A stretch of 64,000 nucleotides of DNA from Archangium violaceum. GTDB lineage: Bacteria; Myxococcota; Myxococcia; Myxococcales; Myxococcaceae. The DNA is taken from contig NZ_CP069338.1 of the NCBI RefSeq assembly GCF_016859125.1, positions 4,713,501 to 4,777,500 on the forward strand. The letters are read 5' to 3'. Position 1 is the stretch's first letter. Every line of letters begins with the position of its first letter. The translations under genes and the position numbers were made by a program. Below are positions 3,664 to 40,396 of the stretch, piece after piece. Below the pieces are notes generated by a model. That model ran no database searches, was not told the origin of the DNA, and saw nothing but the letters and a program-made list of their open reading frames with translations.

Positions 3664-4437
3664 TCACGGATGGTCCGGGTGGAGCCGGTGCCTCCACCTG
3701 GAGCGTTGGGAGGTGAGGTTCCGGTTCTCGAAGAGCTTCACCAGCACGAGCCCCGCGACGAAGCCGCCCACGTGGGCCCAGACGGCCACCCCGCCGCCGC
3801 CCTCGGCGCTGAGCTGATTGAGCTGGGGCAGGCCGGTGATGACCTGGAGGCCGAACCAGTAGAGCAACACCACCCAGGCGGGCAGGGGGATGATGCGGAT
3901 GATGATGATGATGATGAAGAGCATGTTCACCCGCACGCGCGGGTAGAGGATGAGGTAGGCCCCCATCACCCCGGAGATGGCGCCCGAGGCCCCGACCATG
4001 GGAATGGGCGAGGAGGGGTCCACCGCCACCTGGGCCGCCGCCGCCGCCAGGCCACACACCACGTAGAAGACGAGGAAGCGCAGCCGGCCCATGCTGTCCT
4101 CGACGTTGTTGCCGAAGACCCAGAAGAAGAGGCAGTTGCCCAGGATGTGGCCCCAGCTCCCGTGGAGGAACATGGAGGTGAGGGGCGTGAGGCGGTTGAT
4201 GGGCTCCTGATCGACCACGCACGCCAGCCCGTCTCCGAGTGGCACCGGCAGTCCCACCGGGGCCCGTCCGGTGAGCTCGCCCGGGACGAGCCCGAGGTTG
4301 CACACGCTGGAGACGAGGCTCAGGGGGTCGAGGCCGGCACCCTGGATGAAGACCCAGGTGGCTCCGATGGCACCGAGCAGCAGATAGGTGACGATCGGCG
4401 TGCGGAGTGTGGGGTTGTCATCACTGAGAGGAATCAT
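3664..4437 (-). CDS. Rhomboid family intramembrane serine protease
   Basis: Polytopic membrane protease of 257 residues that would cut transmembrane segments of client proteins. The rhomboid signatures are complete: HGSWGHILGN at 92-101 in the second helix, the catalytic serine Ser151 in GASGAISG, and the catalytic His222 in AHVGG. At least six hydrophobic segments are visible. A run of six isoleucines (175-180) is encoded by an ATC tandem repeat. The short tail is basic and histidine-rich. It diverges from the downstream hydrolase, and the 120-bp gap holds both promoters. Confidence 0.93.
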   Translation of the reverse strand: MIPLSDDNPTLRTPIVTYLLLGAIGATWVFIQGAGLDPLSLVSSVCNLGLVPGELTGRAPVGLPVPLGDGLACVVDQEPINRLTPLTSMFLHGSWGHILGNCLFFWVFGNNVEDSMGRLRFLVFYVVCGLAAAAAQVAVDPSSPIPMVGASGAISGVMGAYLILYPRVRVNMLFIIIIIIRIIPLPAWVVLLYWFGLQVITGLPQLNQLSAEGGGGVAVWAHVGGFVAGLVLVKLFENRNLTSQRSRWRHRLHPDHP

Positions 4438-4559
4438 CGGGCGGCTCCATCATGTCCATGACGCAGCCGCGAGGCACTGATTTCCGCGCGTGTATGGCGG
4501 CGGACGTCCCGGCCGGGAGCCGCTTCCGTCCGGGGAGGAGCGACCCTAGCTGTGTGCGC

Positions 4560-5507
4560 ATGACCGCCATTACTCCGCTCTTGATTCCGCTGCCCGGCCT
4601 GCGCGTGCAGGCGCTGGAGGCCGGCCCCTCCGATGGGCCGCTGGTGCTCCTGCTCCACGGTTTCCCCGAGCTGTCCGAGAGCTGGCGCGAGGTGCTGCCC
4701 CGGCTGGCCGAGGCGGGCTTCCGCGCGGTGGCGCCGGACCTGCGGGGCTATGGCGGCACGGACCGGCCCAGGAAGGGCTATGACACCGGTACGCTGGCCA
4801 ACGATGTCGTCCAGATGGCGCGCTACCTCCAGCCGGACCGGCCCGTGTACCTCGTGGGCCACGACTGGGGCGGGGCCATCGCCTACCACGTGGCCGCCCA
4901 CCACCCGGAGGTGGTGGACCGTCTGGCCATCATCAACGCCCCGCATCCGTTGGTGATGGCGCGGGAACTCTGGAAGCCCGGGCAGCTCGTGCGCTCCTGG
5001 TACATGTTCTTCTTCCAGATTCCGTACCTGCCCGAGCGCCTGCTCTCCGCGCGAGGGGGCGCGCTGGTGCCGCGCGTGCTGCGCGGGGCGATGGTGGACC
5101 CGTCGCGCGTGCCCCCGGGGCGTCTGGCGGAGTACGAGGCCAACTTCTCGAGCCGGGAGGCGGCGCGCGCGGCCATCGACTACTACCGCCAGGCGTTCCG
5201 CCGCAACCTCTCTCCCAGGGGGCTGCGCGAGTCGAGGAACTTCCCGCGCATCCGCGCGCCCTTCCTGCTCATCTGGGGCGAGCAGGACATCGCCCTGCGC
5301 AAGTCGCTCACGAAGGGGTTGGAGCCGTACTTCGAACAGCGGCCCGTCGTGCACTACCTGCCCGAGGAGGGCCACTTCGTGCCGTTGGAGGCCCCGGAGA
5401 AGGTGGCGGCGCTGCTCCTCGAGCACTTCTCCGCGGAGCGTCCCGTGGAGGAGGAGTGGGCCTCGCGAGAGGACATGCACGCAGGGGAGCCGCGGCCCCC
5501 GGCGTGA
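4560..5507 (+). CDS. Alpha/beta-hydrolase, epoxide hydrolase-like
   Basis: A 315-residue cytoplasmic hydrolase. It carries HGFPELSESW (oxyanion hole HGFP), the nucleophile elbow GHDWGG with Asp as nucleophile, an acid in WGEQD, and the base in EEGHFVPLE. An Asp nucleophile with HGFPE is typical of epoxide hydrolases and haloalkane dehalogenases, so epoxide hydrolysis is the best guess; the substrate is unknown. I chose the ATG at 4560 because homology begins just after it. GGGGAGGAG at 4532-4540 is rather far upstream, so the in-frame GTG at 4554 is also possible. An upstream extension to 4452 is unlikely to be translated. Confidence 0.85.
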   Translation: MTAITPLLIPLPGLRVQALEAGPSDGPLVLLLHGFPELSESWREVLPRLAEAGFRAVAPDLRGYGGTDRPRKGYDTGTLANDVVQMARYLQPDRPVYLVGHDWGGAIAYHVAAHHPEVVDRLAIINAPHPLVMARELWKPGQLVRSWYMFFFQIPYLPERLLSARGGALVPRVLRGAMVDPSRVPPGRLAEYEANFSSREAARAAIDYYRQAFRRNLSPRGLRESRNFPRIRAPFLLIWGEQDIALRKSLTKGLEPYFEQRPVVHYLPEEGHFVPLEAPEKVAALLLEHFSAERPVEEEWASREDMHAGEPRPPA

Positions 5508-36032: not shown

Positions 36033-37187
36033 CTATTGCTTCACCTCGCAGTACAGCTCACCCGCCGTGCGCTCGTCATCGTCGGAGGCGCGGAACTCGG
36101 GCGGGCCGTACCGCTCCGCGCCGTCCCTGGCCTCCAGCAGCTCCGCCATGGCCTCCTTCGGGCCGTAGGGCTTGCCCCACTGCCTGACACACTCTTCCAG
36201 GTCGGCCTTCAGCTCGGCGGCGGTGGCGTAGCGCTCCGAGGGATCGCGACGCAGCAGCTTGCGGAAGATGGACCGCAGGGGCTCGGACACGTTTTGCGTC
36301 ATCTGCTCGACGTACTCGGGACGAACGACCGCGGCACGGCGGGACAGATCCTCCACCGACGTCCAGCACTCCACCTCCGCCAACCACTCCTCGCTGAGCT
36401 CGTTCATGGGGAAGCCCGGGGGCAGCAGCGCGGCGGCCTGCTCCAGCTCGTCCGTGGCATAGAGCTGCAGGCCGGTGGCCATCTCCACGAGCACGAGGCC
36501 CAACGAGAAGAGATCGGCGCGGGCATCCACCACCACATACACGTTGGGAGGATACAGGTACTCCGGAGCGGCGAAGTCGACCTCTCCCCGGAGGATGTAC
36601 GGGTTGGTCGACTCGCGGCCGATCAGCCGTGAGTACGCCGACACGAACTTCGTCAGCATCACCTGACCGTCATGTCTCAGGAGGACGCTATAGGGATCGA
36701 TGCTGCGGTGGATGACGCCCAGGGGCCTGCCCTCCGCGTCCGTGAGGGTATGCACGTGGGACAGGATGTCGGCCAGCCCCAGGGCCACGTAGACGATGAA
36801 GGACTCGGACATCAGCTGCTGGCGCATGCAGCCGTAGTGACCGGCCATGTTCAGGCTGAAGCCGGACACGTAATCCGTGACGAGATACCTGTAGCCGTTC
36901 CGCTTGAACATGCCATGGAAGCGGGGAATGCCCGGATGGGACATCCGCATGTACAGCTCCGCCTCCTCCTTCATGCGCCTGTGGCTCGACAGCGAGGCAT
37001 CGGGCTCCAACGTCGCGATCTCCACCAACGGGGCCTCCTTGAACCCGGTGCGAGGCAGGCACAGGTACACCGTCCGCTCGCCAGGGCCCAGGACCAGCCT
37101 CTGGAGCACCACGTAGTCGGTATTCCCGTGGGAGAACAGGATGGAAGGCTTGCGGAACCGGGAGTAATACCTGTCGTAGATAGACAT
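36033..37187 (-). CDS. Ser/Thr kinase-like protein lacking catalytic residues (pseudokinase)
   Basis: A 384-residue kinase fold with AGGAG eight bases before its ATG. Several kinase landmarks are degenerate: the glycine loop reads LVLGPGERTVY, the beta3 motif reads VEIATL without Lys, the catalytic loop reads VIHRSIDPYS (160-167) instead of HRDxKxxN, and the DFG position reads KFV (180-182). Structural residues remain: APEY (207-210), DARADLFSLG (221-230) and the C-terminal RDPSERYATAAELKADL. Phosphotransfer is not expected; a scaffold or regulatory role is inferred. It is followed downstream by the RsbRD kinase and preceded by DUF2381 and an active kinase. Confidence 0.85.
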   Translation of the reverse strand: MSIYDRYYSRFRKPSILFSHGNTDYVVLQRLVLGPGERTVYLCLPRTGFKEAPLVEIATLEPDASLSSHRRMKEEAELYMRMSHPGIPRFHGMFKRNGYRYLVTDYVSGFSLNMAGHYGCMRQQLMSESFIVYVALGLADILSHVHTLTDAEGRPLGVIHRSIDPYSVLLRHDGQVMLTKFVSAYSRLIGRESTNPYILRGEVDFAAPEYLYPPNVYVVVDARADLFSLGLVLVEMATGLQLYATDELEQAAALLPPGFPMNELSEEWLAEVECWTSVEDLSRRAAVVRPEYVEQMTQNVSEPLRSIFRKLLRRDPSERYATAAELKADLEECVRQWGKPYGPKEAMAELLEARDGAERYGPPEFRASDDDERTAGELYCEVKQ

Positions 37188-37371: not shown

Positions 37372-38301
37372 TTACGGGAAGTTCACTCCGCGCACGGTGA
37401 GGATTCCCGTGCCGTCCGCCGCACTCACTTCGAGCAGGAAGGGGCCCCGCGCCTGCTCGGAGGTGGCCTCCGCCTCCACGACCACGCGGTCCTGTGCCTG
37501 GGGGGAAAGCGGCCCGGGCTGCCACACGCGGAGCACCCGCGGCCGGACGCCCTCCGGGCCCACCAGCCGCGCTCCCTCCGCCGTCCAGGCCTGGGTGCCC
37601 GTGTTGTTCACATACAACTCCACCACCACCCGCTTTCCCCGGTGGGCGCGGTAGCTCCAGGCCTGCCGCACCGCGAGGACTTCGCTGGGGTGTTGGGTGA
37701 GGTCCTCCGTGATGTCCCGCACCGCGAGCCCATGGCCTCTACCCACCAGCCCGGCGGCGAACAGGTCCACGAGGCCCTCGGGAGGCCTCCCCTCCGCCTG
37801 GGTGCGCGCCAGTTCCACCTCGCACCGTTCGGCCCGCTCGCGTTCCCGCTGGACCGCCTGCTCGCACGCTTCGCCGGAGCGGGGCCGACGGGACACGTCC
37901 ACCTGCTGCTCGGCCTGGAGGGGGTGCACCACCAGCCGGACGGTGGCCCCTTCGGGCGCCGCGCCGTCCGCGAAGCGCATCGTCAGCAACAGCTCCCTGC
38001 CCGGTGGCAGCGAACTCGAGGGGAGGAGCGTTACCACTCCGACGGCCTCGTCCACTGTCACAGAGAGGAAGTGCTCGCGCTCCTCCACCGACACCCCGTC
38101 GCGTTGCAGGGGCGTATGGAGCACGAAGGTGGTGGTGCGGTGGGGGCTGATGCGCACCGCGTGGTTCTGCCCCGTGCCCTCGGCTGTCAGCTCCAGGTGG
38201 CGTACGCCCACCCCGTCCCGCTCTTCAGTCGCGGGTTGGCCGGTGATGGGCGTTGCGGTGAGAAACGCGAGCAGCAGGGGCGTGACGAGCGGGGCGGTCA
38301 T
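37372..38301 (-). CDS. DUF2381 family protein
   Basis: A 309-residue exported protein of the myxobacterial paralogous family DUF2381. It has a signal peptide (TPLLLAFLTATPITGQ), a beta-rich N-terminal half and a central helical segment with several Cys and Arg/Glu (RPRSGEACEQAVQRERERAE), then a beta domain with YVNNTGTQAWTAEGARL and ending VRGVNFP. The start follows GGAGG at 13 bases, separated by a run of eight C on the minus strand. The family is commonly found next to Ser/Thr kinases in myxobacteria, and here it follows one on the same strand. Function unknown. Confidence 0.85.
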   Translation of the reverse strand: MTAPLVTPLLLAFLTATPITGQPATEERDGVGVRHLELTAEGTGQNHAVRISPHRTTTFVLHTPLQRDGVSVEEREHFLSVTVDEAVGVVTLLPSSSLPPGRELLLTMRFADGAAPEGATVRLVVHPLQAEQQVDVSRRPRSGEACEQAVQRERERAERCEVELARTQAEGRPPEGLVDLFAAGLVGRGHGLAVRDITEDLTQHPSEVLAVRQAWSYRAHRGKRVVVELYVNNTGTQAWTAEGARLVGPEGVRPRVLRVWQPGPLSPQAQDRVVVEAEATSEQARGPFLLEVSAADGTGILTVRGVNFP

Positions 38302-38407: not shown

Positions 38408-38932
38408 CTACTCGAAGCGCTTCACCGGGTAGAGGAACGCGCTGCCTCTGACGATGGCGGTGTCCGGCTCGCTCCCGGGCCGCATCATCCCCCAACTCGT
38501 GGTTGACCCTCCCCGCGTCACCACCGTGCAGACGGAGTACGTGTGACCGTCGGGCGTGTGGGCCCGGGTGAAGCGGCCGAACACCTCCTTCTCCCCGAAG
38601 AGGATCTCCCCGGAGAAGAACGTGCCGATCGGCAGCTTTCCCCAGTTCTCGTCCAGAACCAGCGTGGCCGGGCCCGGGCGCACGGTGGTGATCGGCTCGC
38701 TCCCGGGAATCGAAACGATCCCGGACCAGTCATGGCCCGGCGCCTCGAGCTCCAACTCCTTCATGGTCCGCGCCGCGTCGGGCGGGCACTCGGCGGGGGC
38801 GGGCGTGGGCCGCACCTGTGCGGTGGTGGGACCGGCGCATCCGGCGGCGAGGGCGGTGCAGGTCAGGAGCGCTCCCGCCTTGCCGGCCGGGGTGCTCGAT
38901 TCCTTCTGGGACGTCTTCCGTGAGGTCTTCAC
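38408..38932 (-). CDS. Possible nested lipoprotein from internal GTG start
   Basis: Inside the kinase frame, GTG at 38932 is preceded by AAGGA at seven bases and begins VKTSRKTSQKESSTP, then a hydrophobic ALLTCTALAAGC. This reads as a perfect type II signal peptide, with the Cys at residue 32 of the internal product. Translation from here would give a 174-residue lipoprotein comprising the C-terminal domain (with GPATLVLDENWGKLPIGTFF). Either the two genes were fused and the old start persists, or both products are made. This is a prediction from sequence only. Confidence 0.5.
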   Translation of the reverse strand: MKTSRKTSQKESSTPAGKAGALLTCTALAAGCAGPTTAQVRPTPAPAECPPDAARTMKELELEAPGHDWSGIVSIPGSEPITTVRPGPATLVLDENWGKLPIGTFFSGEILFGEKEVFGRFTRAHTPDGHTYSVCTVVTRGGSTTSWGMMRPGSEPDTAIVRGSAFLYPVKRFE

Positions 38933-40396
38933 GTGCGTGTCCTTGGGGGGCGTCGCACGGGCGACGGGCGCAGGGGTTGCCGCCTCTCGAGGCGCTGCGC
39001 CTCCGTCACCTTCCGGCCGCTTCCTCCCGGGCGCCACTTCCTGGCTGGGGGCGGGTCCCACCTCGGGCATGGGACGGGCGGAGGTCACCGGAGAGGTCGA
39101 GCGATGAGGGGCGAGCCCGAGCATCGCCAGCCCGAGGACCAGAACCAACGCGACGCCCGCGCCCACCCACCACCGGGAGGTGCCTCGAGCGCGTGGGGGC
39201 GCGGAGACGGCCGGGGCCTCTGCTTCGCTTGCTGGCGCGGCCACCGTGGGCGGTGCCGGCGTGGCGGGCTCCTCGGCGTGCGAGGTGGGCTCGCCGCGAC
39301 GTGGGTGGCGCCGCTCGTACGCCTCCAGTCGCCGCCACCGTGCTTCTTCGTCCTCGTCCTCCAACTCCCCCTCGGCCGCCGTGGTGGCGGTGTCCGGGCC
39401 CCACGCCTCACACAGTGGCACGTCCCACGTCGCGTCCGCTCGCGCCAGGGCCTCCTCCAACGCGGCGTCCACCGCCCGGGCGTCCGGGTAGCGCGCCTCG
39501 GGTGCCTTCTCCAGCATGCGCAGGCACACGGCCGCGAGCGCCTGGGGCACGCGCGGGTTGCGCACCCGGGGTGATTCGGGCCGCTGGTGCAGGATGGCCT
39601 CTCCCAGCGCCCAGGCGTCCGCGTGCGCGTCGCCCGTCTCCTCCACCTGGAAGGGGAAGGTGCCCGTCAGCAGCCAGTAGAGCAGCACCCCGAGTGCCCA
39701 CAGATCGTCCCGGGCGCTCGCCTCGTAACGCTCGCCCTCGCGGCGCCTTCGCTTGAAGCCCTCCGCCTCGGGGCTGCGGTAGGGCGCGGTGCCCGGCAGC
39801 AGGGGGCCCGTCACCTGGTGCGCTCCGGGGAAGGTGCCCACGCCGAAGTCCACCAGCACCGGCTGCCCGTCCGCCTCGCGCACCACCACGTTGGCGCACT
39901 TCACGTCGCGGTGCACCACGCGCGCCCGGTGCACGGCCGCGAGTTGCCGCGCCAGTGCCCGCACCAGCTCCGCCACCCGCCGGGCCGACGGGTTGTGCCG
40001 CTTCGCCCACGCGTGCAGCGCCCGCCCCTGGACGTACTCCATGACGAGGTACACGAAGCGCGGCGCCTTCTCCGGCCACTCGCCATGTCCCCGCATCGCC
40101 ACCCAGCCGATGCGCCGCAACCGCAGCAGCACCTCCAACTCCCGCCACGCCCAGGCCGCCGCGCGAGGCAGGTGGATGAACTTCACCGCGTACGCCTTCC
40201 CGCTCGGACTCCTGGCCCGGTACACCGTGCCCTGACTGCCACCGCCCAGCCTCGCCTCCAGGTGCAGCCCGCCCACTCGCGTCCCGGGCAGGGGCAATTG
40301 TGGCTCCAGGGGCTCCGTGACGGCCCGCCTCCACAGCATGCGCCGTTGTACCTTCAGCCATGTCCTCGTGGACCGCTCGGCCTCGACCCCGTTCAT
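38408..40396 (-). CDS. Membrane Ser/Thr protein kinase with C-terminal secreted domain
   Basis: A 662-residue protein. The kinase domain starts near residue 40 with ARLGGGSQGTVYRA, AVKFIH, VVHRDVKCANV, VDFGVG and YRSPEA, so it is predicted active. A Pro/Ala-rich region precedes one transmembrane helix (WWVGAGVALVLVLGLAMLG). The remaining C-terminal part is predicted extracytoplasmic; it contains a second hydrophobic lipobox-like LAAGCAG followed by a conserved beta-rich domain. Start ATG 40396 follows GGAGG by eight bases. DUF2381 is the next gene 106 bp downstream. See also the nested lipoprotein entry. Confidence 0.88.
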   Translation of the reverse strand: MNGVEAERSTRTWLKVQRRMLWRRAVTEPLEPQLPLPGTRVGGLHLEARLGGGSQGTVYRARSPSGKAYAVKFIHLPRAAAWAWRELEVLLRLRRIGWVAMRGHGEWPEKAPRFVYLVMEYVQGRALHAWAKRHNPSARRVAELVRALARQLAAVHRARVVHRDVKCANVVVREADGQPVLVDFGVGTFPGAHQVTGPLLPGTAPYRSPEAEGFKRRRREGERYEASARDDLWALGVLLYWLLTGTFPFQVEETGDAHADAWALGEAILHQRPESPRVRNPRVPQALAAVCLRMLEKAPEARYPDARAVDAALEEALARADATWDVPLCEAWGPDTATTAAEGELEDEDEEARWRRLEAYERRHPRRGEPTSHAEEPATPAPPTVAAPASEAEAPAVSAPPRARGTSRWWVGAGVALVLVLGLAMLGLAPHRSTSPVTSARPMPEVGPAPSQEVAPGRKRPEGDGGAAPREAATPAPVARATPPKDTHVKTSRKTSQKESSTPAGKAGALLTCTALAAGCAGPTTAQVRPTPAPAECPPDAARTMKELELEAPGHDWSGIVSIPGSEPITTVRPGPATLVLDENWGKLPIGTFFSGEILFGEKEVFGRFTRAHTPDGHTYSVCTVVTRGGSTTSWGMMRPGSEPDTAIVRGSAFLYPVKRFE

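Follow-up and report, generated by a model that had tools for sequence, protein, structure and literature searches.

One gene of Archangium violaceum, on the minus strand of the window (the whole 64,000-nucleotide stretch of DNA that was analysed), probably encodes two proteins. As judged from its sequence and those of its relatives, a single mRNA is likely to be translated both into an inner-membrane receptor kinase and into an independent, probably outer-membrane lipoprotein, which would have a common C-terminal domain. Two products from one gene fit the conservation of start codons, Shine-Dalgarno (SD) sequences, open mRNA, lipobox and long reading frame, all of which are kept in the family.

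The full-length ORF (38408-40396, minus strand, with its stop at 38408) encodes a receptor-type Ser/Thr kinase of 662 residues with a C-terminal lipoprotein-family domain. Its likeliest start is the ATG at 40396, which has GGAGG upstream. Along the protein, Pkinase is followed by a transmembrane segment (TM1), a linker rich in Pro and Ala, a K-rich stretch and a short hydrophobic run; LAAG-Cys and a domain of 143 residues complete it. The Pfam Pkinase match (residues 45-303; 39488-40264; E 1.7e-31) and the presence of AVKF, HRDVK and DFG, which we take to be the kinase catalytic motifs, identify a Hanks-type Ser/Thr protein kinase. Its score with the PASTA kinase model NF033483 was 125.9, below the cut-off of 450. 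TM1 is encoded by 39110-39166 (VGAGVALVLVLGLAMLGLA; Kyte-Doolittle 19-residue mean 2.48) and has a charge of +3 ahead of it. From the orientation of TM1, the linker (38945-39109) is presumed to be periplasmic in the full-length protein. The motifs QEVAP, GGAAP and APVA-x-A (about 38945-39050) are repeated across many diverged fusions of the same genome, although linkers usually drift.

Re-reading of the minus strand confirmed the GTG at 38932 (38930-38932) with AAGGA (38940-38944) seven bases ahead of it, from which the initial annotation had proposed a nested lipoprotein. It is the sole in-frame ATG, GTG or TTG in the 45 codons ahead of the lipobox Cys. The peptide that would follow, VKTSRKTSQKESSTPAGKAGALLTCTALAAG and then CAG, has the basic n-region, hydrophobic core (13 residues) and LAAGC lipobox described there. 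The predicted signal peptide (38840-38932) has 31 residues, the lipobox Cys (38837-38839) would be +1 of the mature lipoprotein, and the shared C-terminal domain (38411-38839, 143 residues) contains two further invariant Cys. In strict numbering, position -3 is A and -4 is L. Since no D, E, R or K occurs among the six residues ahead of the lipobox, the segment fits a stricter, PROSITE-type pattern, and it has the features of an SPase II-type lipoprotein: a basic n-region, a short h-region, a small -1 residue and the Cys.

The C-terminal part belongs to a large family. In the same genome it has 29 matches at E values up to 1; 23 members (E up to 1e-4) comprise 18 in kinase ORFs and five short lipoprotein genes. 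In their alignment, whose rows were chosen to start near the lipobox Cys, mean column identity is 31% and four columns are invariant, namely the lipobox Cys, two domain Cys and one Gly. The domain occurs in 64 of the 195 Myxococcota genomes searched (eight genera of one family, Myxococcaceae), with at least dozens of copies per genome. In all twenty loci picked from matches to the kinase part only (L176-L195), the domain lies in frame with the kinase. Five genomes hold 103 domain matches: 69 kinase fusions, 31 stand-alone lipoproteins and three with unclear frames. One repeat (L066, of L017) and two loci with C-termini identical to others (L150 and L152, to L068 and L067) were left out. At a locus of a near relative (L001, Archangium violaceum Cb vi76, about 4000-5500), kinase and domain pieces lie in different frames. 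This locus looks decayed, or the frames could reflect an error in the draft sequence; it was left unmended, and loci L002-L008 were not used.

The lipobox Cys is present in all 117 distinct kinase fusions compared, with A, G or S at -1 in every one (to find it, the nearest Cys around the first position of the profile was taken, with six reassigned by rule). It was also read by eye in 39 of 40 later-fetched fusions; the exception, L235, has H ahead of its Cys and was omitted from the tree and the Cys counts. The stretch from -10 to -5 is free of charge in 116/117 and a net positive charge lies ahead of the h-region in 112/117. Lys at +2 is linked to inner-membrane retention in M. xanthus (PMC3222651). 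It occurs in 0/117 fusions, and the outer membrane is therefore the predicted location of the nested lipoprotein. The stricter pattern is matched by 79/117 fusions and 31/34 stand-alone genes, and -3 is N or Q in 29 of the 117, a shortfall that counts against dual translation.

Across the fusions TM1 has a median hydropathy of 2.04 and a median charge of +3 before and +1 after it. The hydrophobic run at the lipobox has a median 19-residue hydropathy of only 1.07, too weak for a membrane-spanning helix. A weak run behind a basic stretch, combined with a strongly N-in/C-out TM1, agrees with a signal peptide rather than with a second helix. The same values bear on the idea that the inserted full-length protein is cut by LspA at the internal lipobox, freeing the lipoprotein from the kinase. 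This would make a second initiation unnecessary and would use the conserved lipobox. However, TM1 would leave the second segment facing the wrong way for Lgt and LspA, the segment is too weak to span the membrane again, and the start-codon evidence given below is left unexplained; cleavage of this kind is the least probable of the explanations considered.

A second Cys (38858-38860) lies at position -7 relative to the lipobox Cys of the window gene. A second Cys within 14 residues ahead of the lipobox Cys occurs in 124/134 and 20/22 fusions but in 6/34 stand-alone genes, a hint that the segment has a further role in the fusions, which counts against dual translation. This bias is what favours a protein made at full length only, with the segment acting as a membrane-proximal Cys-pair motif (disulfide, metal or redox) and the K-rich stretch forming a patch in the periplasm. 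Such a motif does not account for A, G or S at -1 in 117/117, the uncharged -10 to -5 stretch in 116/117, the choice of start codon, the SD or the low mRNA structure, and 11/117 fusions without the upstream Cys still hold the lipobox Cys. We regard it as very improbable.

The proposed start is conserved at the level of codons. The 117 fusions (47 clusters at 65% identity) were aligned as proteins, without reference to codons. Column 67, which holds the GTG at 38932, is V, M or L in 99 of them, and all 99 residues are encoded by start codons. Val is GTG in 54/54 (21 clusters), where GTG makes up 64% of Val codons in these genes; Leu is TTG in 15/15 (four clusters), where TTG makes up 9.8% of Leu codons; and Met accounts for 30 ATG. 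Among the 31 listed columns with at least 15 V, M or L cells, column 59 also consists of start codons throughout (33/33, 22 of them Met). It lies a few residues upstream of column 67, and in several subfamilies it is simply an ATG. The overall rarity of TTG had been considered as proof in its own right and was dropped (9.8% of Leu codons, 26/177 in the start zone) in favour of this column test.

An SD of at least four bases at a spacing of 4 to 10 accompanies 89 of the 99 column-67 starts. Between -45 and -14 of the Cys, an SD of at least five bases with an in-frame start was found in 81/117 fusions, and in 2 and 0 in the other frames. The comparison of frames is a weak control, as composition varies between them; better ones are in-frame windows and synonymous resampling. 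Resampling of synonymous codons gave a mean of 50.5 (sd 4.0) and a maximum of 58 in 100 runs against the 81 observed. With cluster weighting the figures are 35.2 of 47 clusters and 22.9 by resampling, and one representative per cluster still exceeded resampling. Two sets of later-fetched fusions from other genera, for which, as for mRNA folding, expected values treat genes as independent and carry no cluster weighting, gave 14/20 against 9.3 expected (P 0.014) and 13/20 against 6.3 expected (reached in 0 of 5000 simulations). In the family, comparable pairs of SD and start occur in 206/1325 in-frame windows of the same length (32 codons) upstream of TM1, in 9/117 just after TM1 and in 35/351 within the domain. 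In view of the 206/1325, the SD and start of the window gene would by themselves be weak and could be due to chance; it is their conservation across relatives that makes them significant. In a profile of 15 positions, mRNA folding was weakest around the 99 starts (-7.6 kcal/mol at +5 codons), where it was 3.45 +/- 0.31 kcal/mol weaker than in synonymous resamples. An internal ribosome-binding site and start codon are conserved in frame, as expected of a gene within a gene.

Several observations count against dual translation. No start codon is present in column 67 of 18/117 fusions; a subfamily of six (L011, L068, L125, L128, L131 and L135) has an ATG without an SD instead. An SD of at least four bases at an in-frame start in the zone is found in 94/117 and is missing from 23/117. 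Amino-acid content alone accounts for about 50 of the 81 pairs of SD and start, and two other offsets likewise show a positive folding excess relative to resamples (about +2). Of the stand-alone lipoprotein genes, 5/34 have an SD of at least four bases and 29/34 fall below four, unlike the internal starts, so an SD is no sure marker here.

These data also bear on a relic of fusion, by which a kinase gene captured a lipoprotein gene and the full-length kinase alone is made today, signal peptide and start being leftovers. The existence of stand-alone lipoproteins, the drift of 38/117 fusions from the strict lipobox pattern and the share of the SD signal due to amino-acid content all speak for it. 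A relic would nevertheless lose its codon choice, and column 67 is NTG in 99/99, including the uncommon Leu codon TTG; SD with start exceeds synonymous expectation in all three sets; and the Cys is kept in 117/117 despite the mean column identity of 31% in the alignment from the same genome. In addition, stand-alone and fusion clades are separate in the tree of the domain, indicating that the signals were kept through deep divergence. A mere relic is thus unlikely, if less so than the two readings discussed above. The initial annotation offered either fusion with a retained start or dual translation, and both halves of that proposal survive the available tests and remain supported.

In that tree 33 of the 34 stand-alone genes (L020, L023, L028-L030, L069-L095, and L160 and L161, which lack a kinase match and were counted as stand-alone) form a clade with support 1.0, from which the main fusion clade (126 members, support 0.87) is separate. 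Class labels I and II were measured in five genomes, and other fusions in the tree carry label I by default; L159, L162, L164 and L166, which lie outside the main class I clade, may be class II. In the stand-alone genes the lipobox segment is the N-terminus of the translated product, and in the fusions this status rests on the predicted internal start. The finding of 31/103 stand-alone genes and of the Cys in 117/117 and 39/40 fusions is at odds with a region that is always kinase-fused and lacks the lipobox Cys, which the initial annotation had named as evidence that would speak against it. Among the 103 domain matches of the five genomes there was no clearly split pair of kinase and lipoprotein genes (frames are unclear in three), and none of the 31 stand-alone genes occupies the position of a split-off lipoprotein. 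The continuous long frame has thus been kept, and both products of the fusion gene appear to be needed.

The gene downstream of the window fusion (37372-38301, minus strand) matches DUF2381 (PF09544 and TIGR02268), and this is the rule. In the five genomes, among the matches listed, DUF2381 adjoins at least 66 of 69 fusions, downstream in at least 36 (35 within 270 bases) and upstream of the kinase in at least 30, with none seen in three. For stand-alone lipoproteins it lies upstream in at least 27/31 (25 within 310 bases), with none seen in four. Conversely, 93 of 105 listed matches to DUF2381, a paralogous Myxococcaceae family, adjoin the lipoprotein domain. The comparison with relatives that had been proposed as a check thus revealed that lipoprotein and DUF2381 belong together as a unit whether or not a kinase is present, and the linkage suggests that the domain may bind DUF2381. 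The initial annotation was right in its account of the gene itself; it missed how large the family is, with its dozens of copies in a genome, and also DUF2381 as a partner. After DUF2381 comes another Ser/Thr kinase gene (36033-37187, minus strand), and related kinases are found near five other fusions of the same genome. The literature searched, which covers a minority of subscription journals, yielded no paper on DUF2381 or TIGR02268, and the nested family offers a first approach to DUF2381.

The C-terminal domain had no match in Pfam or NCBIfam. The sole PDB profile matches were fatty-acid-binding proteins (E 0.42-0.66), which were judged to be due to chance and rejected as relatives. Folded alone, the domain gave a mean pLDDT of 40.7 and a pTM of 0.29, a mere hint of an all-beta structure and too poor for a fold search.

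Dual translation would work as follows. Initiation at the ATG at 40396 would yield the 662-residue kinase, with its kinase domain in the cytoplasm, TM1 leading out, and linker and C-terminal domain in the periplasm. Initiation at the GTG at 38932, with its own AAGGA, would yield a prelipoprotein of 174 residues, whose n-region, h-region and lipobox would be read by Sec, Lgt and LspA to give a free lipoprotein of the shared domain. Initiation at the internal start, lipidation, membrane location and role are all deduced rather than observed. The lipoprotein and kinase copies of the domain may have a binding partner in common, for which the simplest candidate is the secreted DUF2381 protein encoded in their operon. 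The free copy might then titrate DUF2381 from the kinase, or might bridge DUF2381 to it.

The nearest precedent is Rpn (RpnL/RpnS). A single ORF there encodes a full-length enzyme and also, by way of an internal start, the C-terminal domain of that enzyme, which as a separate product blocks the longer one (PMC10327210). A variable domain and a multi-copy family are further likenesses. The likeness is one of arrangement: Rpn proteins are nuclease toxins and antitoxins and RpnS is proven, whereas the nested lipoprotein here is predicted and would reside in a different compartment from the membrane kinase. The same source mentions Cas11, which is made from an internal start within cas10d (type I-D CRISPR) and, as a C-terminal product, cooperates with the large protein; unlike the nested lipoprotein, it is a subunit of a complex and has no membrane or lipid signal (PMC10327210).

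Receptor Hanks kinases of the PASTA type also have a cytoplasmic kinase, a single TM and an outer domain, but the outer domain here is unnamed and has its own start and signal peptide. In RcsF and NlpE, which are outer-membrane lipoprotein sensors encoded by separate genes, an outer-membrane lipoprotein reports to an inner-membrane signalling protein. The logic may be shared, with the difference that here the sensor lipoprotein and the receptor domain would be the same sequence. In the literature searched, which took in internal initiation, nested isoforms and the kinases and lipoproteins of Myxococcus and covers a minority of subscription journals, no title describes a nested kinase and lipoprotein. 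A search for ribosome profiling in Myxococcus xanthus gave no paper whose title names either of them.

A possible, rather speculative extension is that these genes encode envelope sensors. Each would supply both an inner-membrane receptor kinase and an outer-membrane lipoprotein with the same domain, secreted DUF2381 would be the common ligand that bridges the two or is exchanged between them, and the many diverged copies in a genome could provide insulated recognition channels. Myxobacteria pass outer-membrane lipoproteins between cells (PMC4488436). Given this exchange, the lipoprotein of one cell could even signal to the kinase of its neighbour.

The signature of a nested lipoprotein is present in most of the 157 kinase genes examined, all from one family of predatory bacteria. 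Myxobacteria are soil-dwelling predators, and gene annotation assumes one protein per ORF. If dual translation is true, annotation lacks many lipoproteins, and in many kinase mutants two proteins have been lost together. The family would then illustrate clearly, and in a testable way, how an internal start can direct one domain to two membranes.
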